From NCBI GenBank assembly GCA_017960645.1, contig JAGCYU010000022.1:1-64000 (forward strand): DNA of 64,000 nt, in the 5' to 3' direction. Made by a program: the position numbers and the translations under genes. Positions within the stretch are counted from its first letter, which is position 1. Every line of letters starts with the position of its first letter. Source of the DNA: Alphaproteobacteria bacterium. Its GTDB lineage: Bacteria > Pseudomonadota > Alphaproteobacteria > CAAHEQ01 > UBA3637. Shown here piece after piece: positions 53,686-57,133 of the stretch. The notes below the pieces were generated by a model. That model did not search any database. It was not told the origin of the DNA and worked only from the letters and a program-made list of their open reading frames with translations.

Positions 53686-54414
53686 ATGATGACATTTGAT
53701 CAAGCTGTGCAATATACTAACGCCACAACAATAGTATCCAGTTTTCCCTTTACAAAATCTCAATTTGAACAATTACAAAAGCTCAATCTGTTTGCCATAC
53801 ACCAGGCGTGTAATGATGAAGAAGTCCGCTTAATGCCGGCAAAAATGATTTATAAAGTCAATGAAGAATTCAAACTAGCTCTTATGGCCTTATTGGTCAC
53901 ATGTGCCGTTATGGATTTTCATCGTCAAGGTCGTGAATCAAAAGAATTTTTTGATACACAAATAAAAATTACTCAAAAAAAAGATGGCAGAAAAGTACTT
54001 AATTTTGGGATTATTCGCGCCAATCTGCTAGAGCGATTTTTAATCCCCGAAATTGTAGATGATTGGATTACTTATCGTGACGTTAATGGCGATGGCATTC
54101 ATGCTCTAGCTCGTAAAAAAATAGGCTTTATAGGTATTTCAGGTTATGAAAAGGGTGGCGAACCCCTTTATGAATTTGTCCGCTTTTACCATAAATTGAT
54201 GGAACGTAAGCAGCGCAAATCTGAAAAATTATTGGAACAATTCCAACAAGAAGCTATTCATAGCTTAGCCAACAAAGTAGTAGAACAACAACTTTTGGAA
54301 GGGCTATCCCCTGATGCGATTTTAAAAAGTCTAACAGATGAAACGAAAATAAAAAAAACGCCACAACGAATTAAACATTCCAACGATCCTCTGTTGTTAG
54401 AGGATGATTCCTAG
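53686..54414 (+). CDS. Protein of unknown function
   Basis: 242 residues. No signal peptide or membrane segment. One buried-looking stretch (ALMALLVTCAVMDF, about 65-78) lies in an otherwise charged, probably all-helical protein. The C-terminal third is strongly helical (KQRKSEKLLEQFQQEAIHSL) and ends in an acidic tail (LLLEDDS). I do not recognise a family. It has a perfect-consensus promoter, so it is probably well expressed. Its stop is 1 nt from the end of the convergent micro-gene at 54416. Confidence 0.65.
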   Translation: MMTFDQAVQYTNATTIVSSFPFTKSQFEQLQKLNLFAIHQACNDEEVRLMPAKMIYKVNEEFKLALMALLVTCAVMDFHRQGRESKEFFDTQIKITQKKDGRKVLNFGIIRANLLERFLIPEIVDDWITYRDVNGDGIHALARKKIGFIGISGYEKGGEPLYEFVRFYHKLMERKQRKSEKLLEQFQQEAIHSLANKVVEQQLLEGLSPDAILKSLTDETKIKKTPQRIKHSNDPLLLEDDS

Positions 54415-54415
54415 T

Positions 54416-54511
54416 TTATCTGGACTGCGCTACCGCTCTTGCAAAGCAGGCTGCGATAATTACCCAAGTTGCCCAGAACTCATCCCAAGTCATATCCAGG
54501 ATCGGTATCAT
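54416..54511 (-). CDS. Micro-protein 1 of a duplicated pair, 31 residues, membrane peptide
   Basis: The ATG at 54511 follows GGAAGGAGG by 5 nt. Its own promoter is at 54535-54563. The peptide begins MIPILDMTWDEFWA and continues as a hydrophobic Trp/Ile/Ala-rich helix ending in A-R-A-V-A-Q-S-R. The second cassette at 54597 encodes a similar peptide. Over the first 14 codons the two differ by five synonymous and four amino-acid changes, which argues for coding. The size and composition resemble type I toxin or small regulatory membrane peptides; that is inference only. Confidence 0.7.
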   Translation of the reverse strand: MIPILDMTWDEFWATWVIIAACFARAVAQSR

Positions 54512-54534
54512 GTGCGCCTCCTTCCTTCGCTAAT

Positions 54535-54563
54535 ATTATATCATAAAAGCACAAAAAAGTCAA
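54535..54563 (-). promoter_or_regulatory. Promoter of micro-protein 1
   Basis: Minus strand TTGACT (54563-54558), 17-nt spacer, TATAAT (54540-54535). Confidence 0.85.
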
Positions 54564-54596
54564 CGAACAGTCAAATAACAGATTGAAACAAAAGCA

Positions 54597-54689
54597 TTAT
54601 TTCATAGATGCCGCATAAGAGTATATGGCAAACAGAATAATACACGATGCCCAAAAATCACCCCAAGTAATGCCTAAAATAGGAATCAT
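54597..54689 (-). CDS. Micro-protein 2 of a duplicated pair, 30 residues, membrane peptide
   Basis: The ATG at 54689 follows AAAGGAAGG. Its own promoter is at 54714-54742. The peptide begins MIPILGITWGDFWA, then a hydrophobic helix (S-C-I-I-L-F-A-I-Y-S-Y-A-A) and a C-terminal Met-Lys. The same sequence (GTTGACTTTTTT) surrounds the -35 in both cassettes, so promoter, ribosome-binding site and gene were duplicated together. No terminator is evident between the cassettes. Expression is away from lon, whose promoter is back-to-back with this one. Confidence 0.7.
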   Translation of the reverse strand: MIPILGITWGDFWASCIILFAIYSYAASMK

Positions 54690-54713
54690 GTGTCCTTCCT
54701 TTCTTGCATCGGT

Positions 54714-54742
54714 AGTATAACACACGTGCAGAAAAAAGTCAA
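54714..54742 (-). promoter_or_regulatory. Promoter of micro-protein 2
   Basis: Minus strand TTGACT (54742-54737), 17-nt spacer, TATACT (54719-54714). With the lon -35 it forms the inverted repeat GTCAAC-AGAACC-GTTGAC. Confidence 0.85.
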
Positions 54743-54750
54743 CAGAACCG

Positions 54751-54779
54751 TTGACAATTTGATAAAACATACATATATA
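54751..54779 (+). promoter_or_regulatory. Promoter of lon
   Basis: TTGACA (54751-54756), 17-nt spacer, TATATA (54774-54779). Confidence 0.65.
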
Positions 54780-54811
54780 TTAGAAAACAAACCAAAACAA
54801 AGGACAAAACT

Positions 54812-57133
54812 ATGACCGAAAAAGCAGTAGATGGAATTTATGCCGTTTTGGCTTTACGAGACATTGTCATTTTCCCAAATGTTGTTGTCCCGTTATTTGT
54901 TGGACGCGAAAAATCTATTGCGGCATTGGAAAACGCTATGCAAAATAAAAAGCCTGTCCTTTTGATTGCCCAAACAGATGCACAAAATGAAAATCCTTAC
55001 ACTGGCGACTTATTCCGCGTAGGAACATTAGCCGAGGTTTTACAATTATTAAAACTGCCCGATGGCACAATTAAAATTTTAATTGAAGGCAAAGAACGTG
55101 CACGAGTCATGGATTGGACTCAAAGCGAACCGTTTTTTGAAGCACATGCCGCCTTATTAACAGATAAAGACGAAGATGCAACAAAAATTGATGCGTTAAA
55201 GCGTTCTGTTGTGGAACAGTTTGAAAATTATATTCGTTTATCTGGGAACTTGTCTCCTGAAATTTTAACGGCCGTGGCCGATATTAAAGAACCTGCTAAT
55301 TTAGCAAACGTTATTGCAACGCACCTGGCTGTTAAAGTAGATGAAAAACAAAAAATTTTAGAAAATAATTCATTAACAGGACGTTTGGCCGCTTTATTTG
55401 CTGTCATGGAAAAAGAAATTGAAGTTTTGAACGTTGAGCGCAATATTCGCAAACGCGTCAAACGTCAAATGGAAAAATCCCAACGCGAATATTACTTAAA
55501 CGAACAAATGAAAGCCATTCAAAAAGAGTTAGGAGACGGCGATGACACATCTATGATAGAATTGGAAGATAAAATTAAAAAAGCCAATATGTCAAAGGAA
55601 GCCACTGAAAAAGCGCTATCAGAGTTAAAACGCCTGAAGATGATGGGACCTATTTCGGCTGAGGGCGGTGTAATTCGCAACTATATTGAATGGCTGATTT
55701 CTTTACCATGGACCGAAAAAAAGGAACTTTCCTCCGATTTAAAAGCAGCTAAAAAAATTTTAGATGAAGATCATTATGGCTTGGAAAAAGTAAAAGAACG
55801 GATTTTAGAATTTTTGGCTGTGCAACACAGAACAGGTTGTGTCAAAGGGTCTATTTTATGCTTGGTTGGTCCCCCTGGTGTTGGAAAAACGAGCCTCGGT
55901 CAATCTATTGCCAGAGCCACAGGTCGTACTTTTGTGCGCGCCAGTTTAGGCGGCATGCATGATGAAGCCGAAATTCGCGGACACAGACGAACATACATTG
56001 GCTCAATGCCAGGCAAAATCATTCAGAACATGAAAAAAGCAGGCAATATCAACCCCCTCTTTTTATTGGATGAAATTGATAAGCTTGGGAATGACTATCG
56101 TGGAGATCCCGCTTCAGCTTTATTAGAAGTATTGGATCCAGAACAAAATAAAACTTTTGCAGATCATTATTTGGAAGTGGATTATGACTTATCACACGTC
56201 ATGTTTATTACAACGGCTAATACACTAGATATGCCTCGTCCATTATTAGATCGTATGGAAATCATTGAGCTGTCTGGGTATACAGAACAAGAAAAAATGG
56301 AAATTGCCAAGCGTCATTTAATCCCTAAACAGTTTGATTTAGTTGGGTTAAAACCTAATGAATTAACTATTGCAGATGAGGCTATTCAAGAACTGATTAA
56401 CCGCTATACAATGGAATCCGGCGTACGTCAACTTGAACGTGAAATTGCGAACATCGCACGCAAAGTTGTGAAAGAGTTACAAGAAAAGAAAGCCGATCAA
56501 GTAACCATTACCCCTGCCAATTTAAAGAAATATTCGGGCCAGCCAAAACATTTCTTTGGAAAAGCAGAGATAAAAGATTTAGTTGGTGTTTCCACCGGTT
56601 TATACTATTCAGAAGTTGGCGGTGGCATTATGCCCCATGAAGTATTAACTATGCCTGGTTCTGGAAAAATTACCTTTACTGGGAAATTGGGTGAAGTTTT
56701 TAAAGAAACCATTGAAGCAGGCCGTTCCTATGTGCGTGCTCATGCGGAAGAATTCGGCATAGATTCAAAAGTGTTTAATGAAAAAGATATTCACTTGCAT
56801 GTACCGGAAGGCGCTCAACCCAAAGAGGGACCATCCAGCGGAGTGGCTGTTATTACAGCTTTAGTTTCAGCCTTAACTGGGATCCCTGTAAAAAAACAAG
56901 TTGCCATGACGGGAGAAATCACTTTGCGCGGGCATATTTTGCCTATCGGCGGCTTAAAAGAAAAATTATTAGGGGCTTTGCGGGCAGGTATTAAAACGGT
57001 ATTTATCCCAAAAGACAACAAAAATGATTTGGAGGATATTCCAAAAATTGTGAAAGATGAACTGAATATCATTTTGGTATCTGAAATCCCGGAAGTTCTG
57101 AATCAAGCGCTTATTCGCCCTGTTATTAAGTAA
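54812..57133 (+). CDS. lon: ATP-dependent protease Lon
   Basis: 773 residues, with AAAGGAC before the ATG. N-terminal substrate-binding domain (VLALRDIVIFPNVVVPLFVG), coiled coil, then AAA+ with Walker A GPPGVGKTSLGQ (about 350) and Walker B PLFLLDEIDK (about 417). The C-terminal protease domain has the catalytic Ser in PKEGPSSGVA (about 676) and Lys in GGLKEKLLGA (about 719). It is the general quality-control protease. A terminator-like hairpin follows at 57186. Confidence 0.97.
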   Translation: MTEKAVDGIYAVLALRDIVIFPNVVVPLFVGREKSIAALENAMQNKKPVLLIAQTDAQNENPYTGDLFRVGTLAEVLQLLKLPDGTIKILIEGKERARVMDWTQSEPFFEAHAALLTDKDEDATKIDALKRSVVEQFENYIRLSGNLSPEILTAVADIKEPANLANVIATHLAVKVDEKQKILENNSLTGRLAALFAVMEKEIEVLNVERNIRKRVKRQMEKSQREYYLNEQMKAIQKELGDGDDTSMIELEDKIKKANMSKEATEKALSELKRLKMMGPISAEGGVIRNYIEWLISLPWTEKKELSSDLKAAKKILDEDHYGLEKVKERILEFLAVQHRTGCVKGSILCLVGPPGVGKTSLGQSIARATGRTFVRASLGGMHDEAEIRGHRRTYIGSMPGKIIQNMKKAGNINPLFLLDEIDKLGNDYRGDPASALLEVLDPEQNKTFADHYLEVDYDLSHVMFITTANTLDMPRPLLDRMEIIELSGYTEQEKMEIAKRHLIPKQFDLVGLKPNELTIADEAIQELINRYTMESGVRQLEREIANIARKVVKELQEKKADQVTITPANLKKYSGQPKHFFGKAEIKDLVGVSTGLYYSEVGGGIMPHEVLTMPGSGKITFTGKLGEVFKETIEAGRSYVRAHAEEFGIDSKVFNEKDIHLHVPEGAQPKEGPSSGVAVITALVSALTGIPVKKQVAMTGEITLRGHILPIGGLKEKLLGALRAGIKTVFIPKDNKNDLEDIPKIVKDELNIILVSEIPEVLNQALIRPVIK

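Follow-up and report, generated by a model that had tools for sequence, protein, structure and literature searches.

The window, by which we mean the whole stretch of 64,000 nucleotides that was analysed, comes from a genome of 1.14 Mb, whose size and kinship group suggest an anaerobic order of alphaproteobacteria with small genomes. Between a gene denoted here 'up' and lon it contains two tandem units on the minus strand, each consisting of a near-consensus promoter, a ribosome-binding site and a hydrophobic open reading frame (ORF) of 30 or 31 residues, which confirms the arrangement proposed in an earlier sequence-only reading of this DNA. Unit A is proximal to lon and stands back-to-back with it, while unit B is the second and lies further away. 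The features are as follows.

53686–54414, plus strand: 'up' (242 aa), lying between clpX and the micro-genes and convergent with the latter; genus-restricted, with a predicted fold that has no match in the PDB
54416–54511, minus strand: ORF B, 31 aa, the paralogue MIPILDMTWDEFWATWVIIAACFARAVAQSR
54517–54522, minus strand: Shine–Dalgarno sequence of ORF B, AGGAGG, assigned from sequence
54535–54563, minus strand: promoter of unit B, TTGACT-17-TATAAT (11/12), with TG before it
54597–54689, minus strand: ORF A, 30 aa, a single-span peptide, MIPILGITWGDFWASCIILFAIYSYAASMK, stop included
54693–54697, minus strand: Shine–Dalgarno sequence of ORF A, AAGGA, assigned from sequence
54714–54742, minus strand: promoter of unit A, TTGACT-17-TATACT; a TG precedes the −10 element
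54751–54781, plus strand: lon promoter, TTGACA ... CATACATATATATT
54812–57133, plus strand: lon (ATP-dependent protease), the divergent neighbour; Pfam Lon_C, 1.7e-83

The minimum interval of the micro-gene locus is 54416–54742, or to about 54781 when the overlap with the lon promoter is counted. In both units the distance from the −10 element to the ATG is 23–24 nt, giving a leader of about 16 nt that has room just for the Shine–Dalgarno sequence. The stop codons of ORF B and 'up' are 1 nt apart. The 'up' protein is found in this genus only, in varied neighbourhoods, and is predicted to be mostly helical; a fold search returned no match with E ≤ 0.001, and so no partner is inferred from it. 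We also note that the 15 nt that open ORF A (ATGATTCCTATTTTA, 54675–54689) recur inverted, with one mismatch, at the end of 'up' (54404–54418), and that 'up' here has a C-terminus unlike that of its homologues, which end in ...KK. A comparable repeat occurred in 9% of Markov-shuffled regions, and this one may be either chance or the remnant of an inverted duplication.

ORF B matches ORF A with an E value of 3e-5 in a search within their own genome. Apart from weak matches (E 0.05–0.4) located away from the locus, these two ORFs were all that single-sequence searches recovered from this genome and from those of its genus and family. Similarity to the own peptides thus misses the family, and it is synteny, promoter anatomy and the pattern of codon substitution that reveal it in five species; genes of 24–31 codons are shorter than the usual annotation limits. 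All four congeners with the order clpX–'up'–lon (G002, G003, G005 and G010) have minus-strand micro-ORFs in the 'up'–lon gap. With the present genome (G000) counted, micro-ORFs lie at the locus in 5/5 syntenic genomes, and lon is in each case on the other strand. The peptides are MELNDILVSLFMVLAFSGFLNSGK in G002, MMSLDDLFVSAFIILVCMGVFNGK and MEIDGEWLVIAFIILCFVGITVRTRDEHGKKKDG in G003, MMTLHDLIVSLCIVLAFSGFLNGK and MDIDTEWLVFGFIILCFIGVSLRTKDQHGNHEN in G005, and MMALNDFCVSVFIILAFMGMFNGK in G010. A 24-residue form is present in four species, in each of which it has a 12/12 consensus promoter, and a form of 33–34 residues is present in two. The second units of G000 and G003 have their own promoters, distant from lon, and G005b has none of its own. 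In a tree of lon the five carriers form one clade with support of 100/99.

Profiles of the 24-residue and 33–34-residue forms recovered only the copies at the lon locus in 43 genomes of the family, which are also the whole order in the sample. No comparable cassette was found at 80 lon loci of other alphaproteobacteria, nor at 25 lon loci outside the carrier clade (22 from other genera and three from congeners). Other genes flank lon in G006, G007 and G009, and 'up' lies elsewhere, without micro-genes, in G001, G006, G009 and, in part only, G007. G006 has a lipoprotein-like ORF of 60 residues with its own ribosome-binding site (MQKFFLILIVFALAGCTYAG..., L102:2124–2306). In the 97%-complete congener G001 the best hit for lon had E 2.5e-4 and is not a true match, which reflects either loss of lon or an assembly gap. 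Searches of Pfam, NCBIfam and PADLOC gave no match to the peptides and PHROGs none with E < 0.4, all of these being weak tests for 30 residues; Rfam showed nothing meaningful across the region, and the micro-peptides matched neither viral contigs and phages nor solved structures. Nothing relevant was found in the literature on small proteins divergent from lon.

The 24-residue and 33–34-residue forms resemble one another (hhalign P 4e-5). The two peptides of the present genome, which begin MIPIL, align in register with the 24-residue profile (hhalign P 2.9e-4; p = 0.07 against a shuffle that keeps composition) and agree with the congener peptides in position, anatomy and charge pattern. Their homology to the congener peptides is argued from where the ORFs lie and how the units are built, and it is unproved at the level of sequence. 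Conservation of the frame in relatives, whose absence had been named earlier as a refutation, holds at the level of the family, while the exact MIPIL peptides are confined to this genome among those searched.

The codon changes bear on whether the ORFs are coding. Over their first 14 codons ORF A and ORF B show the five synonymous codons and four amino-acid differences that the sequence-only reading had counted, with 1/2/8 nucleotide changes at the three codon positions. Summed over four independent pairs (A–B, G003a–G010a, G005a–G002a and the 33–34-residue pair), the changes at positions 1/2/3 are 32/18/58 (chi-square p = 1e-5). The third-position excess persists without the G000 pair (p = 5e-5), and when A and B are compared by themselves at full length the bias is weak (p = 0.12). 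The pN/pS values are 0.37/0.74 for A–B, 0.15/0.58 for G003a–G010a, 0.22/0.64 for G005a–G002a and 0.24/0.82 for the 33–34-residue pair; in two further comparisons involving G002 pN is nearer to pS (0.36/0.38 and 0.28/0.45). With pN well short of pS in most of the pairs and nearer parity in those two, the peptides are under real but loose selection. These substitution patterns indicate that the micro-ORFs are real coding genes. The undescribed small-protein family that had been suspected is borne out as an unannotated family of membrane proteins, since the frames recur at the locus in four congeners with mostly synonymous changes.

The combination of parts is also rare. With loose criteria (promoter at least 8/12, ribosome-binding site at least 4/6, hydrophobic, outside long ORFs), units A and B are the sole matches in the 64-kb window. 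Across 368 kb in stretches sampled from this genome and its congeners, every match falls at the clpX–'up'–lon micro-gene locus; anatomical paralogues are possible in the remaining genome.

The peptides share a common design. All eight have an acidic head, a hydrophobic, uncharged core of about 15 (13–18) residues and a tail with basic residues, with a net charge of −1 to −3 on the N-terminal side and +2 to 0 on the C-terminal side. The insertion energy is negative in 8/8 on a home-made approximate scale (not TMHMM), and the AlphaFold model of peptide A has a helix at residues 9–29 with a pLDDT of 91. For all eight, the charge pattern, assessed with the same approximation, predicts a single helix with the N-terminus outside and the C-terminus inside.

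The position of the locus relative to lon is equally constant. The inverted repeat GTCAAC-agaacc-GTTGAC reported at this point is indeed present, but it is simply the −35 element of unit A facing that of lon, 8 nt away. In all five species the −35 element of the first micro-gene is 4–8 nt from that of lon, and this divergent geometry is kept although the peptide next to lon changes from species to species (the 24-residue form in G002, G005 and G010, the 34-residue form in G003 and the MIPIL form here). From known footprints, two polymerases would be unable to bind at once to elements so close together. Of the link to protease control proposed earlier, the geometry suggests only a form at the level of the promoter, in which the divergent promoters would be mutually exclusive. 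The lon promoter form TTGACT-17-CATATT recurs in the four congeners. We note that at many lon loci of the family (L171–L198) a motif, CATACATATATAT, follows TTGAC or TTTACA at a distance of about 17 nt, whether micro-genes are present or absent. It partly resembles an alphaproteobacterial heat-shock promoter, and the lon promoter is possibly of the heat-shock type. A stronger version of the link, in which the perfect housekeeping promoter of a clade-specific membrane micro-protein and the lon promoter would form an exclusive switch yielding either micro-protein or Lon, with the peptide slot swapped between paralogous forms among species and the switch kept, strikes us as unlikely.

The same geometry could mean that transcription itself is what matters, the peptide being incidental: the strong divergent promoter would hamper lon, or its RNA would be antisense to the 3′ end of 'up', or both. 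The spacing of 4–8 nt between −35 boxes in all five species is in keeping with this, as is the fact that the micro-gene stops abut or nearly abut that of 'up' (TAATTA is common to both in G002, G003 and G010). In G002 (L221:1932–2006 and downstream), too, a strong intrinsic terminator begins to play a part in this picture, lying within the 3′ end of 'up' and 36 nt past where the micro-gene stops. However, the third-position excess and pN below pS show selection on the peptide, good ribosome-binding sites would be superfluous, and the second units of G000 and G003 have promoters of their own away from lon. We regard this explanation, too, as unlikely. That the ORFs are chance or decaying frames downstream of a bidirectional lon promoter might be argued from the confinement of homologues to five species and of the exact MIPIL peptide to one genome, but it is already largely contradicted by a full anatomy that is unique in 368 kb, by its presence in 5/5 syntenic genomes and by the synonymous bias; we consider it very improbable. 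A peptide that serves a gene further downstream as its leader or attenuator might be expected to look similar (a short ORF, a strong ribosome-binding site and a promoter close by), but there is no structured leader and the sole downstream gene, 'up', is convergent, so that gene order excludes this candidate and we give it next to no weight.

A further alternative is a type I toxin, in which the peptides would depolarize the membrane and be silenced by an antisense RNA. Their size, hydrophobicity and tandem copies do recall the Ldr, Ibs and Zor loci (PMC4147584; PMC3919570), and there is a 10/12 antisense promoter-like site within the G010 ORF. Against synonymous-codon randomization, however, antisense promoter scores do not exceed expectation in 7/8 genes and are weakly above it in G010 (p = 0.04, uncorrected for eight tests), a scan that addresses overlapping RNA and leaves a trans-acting RNA outside its reach. 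The antisense RNA sought on the earlier suggestion thus gave no promoter signal in the ORFs beyond the marginal G010 site. The RNA folds no better than its shuffles (z of 0.2 and 0.6) and the leader is only about 16 nt, a locked or structured mRNA being common but not universal among type I toxins. Near-consensus promoters would be surprising in front of a gene with a lethal product. Each genome has one locus, with no further copies elsewhere in the genomes searched; viral contigs and phages yielded nothing that matches the micro-peptides, and Pfam, Rfam, NCBIfam, PADLOC and PHROGs gave no match to a known toxin family (a weak test for 30 residues). The description 'toxin-like' is consequently not upheld, given antisense promoters not above the codon-imposed level (G010 weakly so), a short unstructured leader and near-perfect promoters, and we think a toxin quite improbable.

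In our view, the most consistent interpretation, which we hold with moderate confidence, is a clade-specific micro-gene locus between 'up' and lon that codes for diverging single-span inner-membrane proteins of 24–34 residues, strongly expressed, probably accessory or regulatory, and putatively coupled inversely with lon. Within this interpretation, the clade-specific, unannotated family of single-span membrane micro-proteins is regarded as real, an accessory or regulatory role is most likely and coupling to lon at the level of the promoter is possible. Its origin, or its establishment at this position between 'up' and lon, would have been a single event within one clade of an AT-rich genus of alphaproteobacteria. 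The near-perfect sigma-70 promoters, the leaders of about 16 nt and the lack of regulatory structure suggest strong peptide production in growing cells. The peptides would then insert in the inner membrane and may pack helix-to-helix against a larger membrane partner, like small accessory or regulatory subunits. Because the −35 elements of micro-gene and lon are 4–8 nt apart in all five species, one RNA polymerase would exclude the other and transcription of the two would be inversely coupled. The locus offers a compact test case, both of how small membrane proteins originate and diverge next to the gene for a major stress protease and of exclusion between divergent promoters at lon.

KdpF, CydX, AcrZ and MgrB belong to a class of small single-span accessory or regulatory membrane proteins. 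Like these, the micro-proteins are very short, with one hydrophobic helix, few end charges and a poorly conserved sequence; unlike them, they are encoded without an adjoining partner operon, divergently from lon and in duplicate, and no sequence similarity was found in the libraries searched. MgrB has been described as a small membrane protein (PMC10576120). With the type I toxins Ldr, Ibs, Zor and Hok (PMC4147584; PMC3919570) the micro-genes share a short hydrophobic peptide and tandem duplicates, but they differ in lacking an antisense promoter signal (marginal in G010) and a long or structured leader, and in having a constitutive-looking promoter and one locus per genome. The family also resembles the genus-specific smORF families of microbiome catalogues (PMC11364881), which are likewise found in one genus, unannotated and partly transmembrane; in contrast to those catalogue entries, the micro-genes described here have synteny, the geometry of their promoters and selection at the level of codons to back them.
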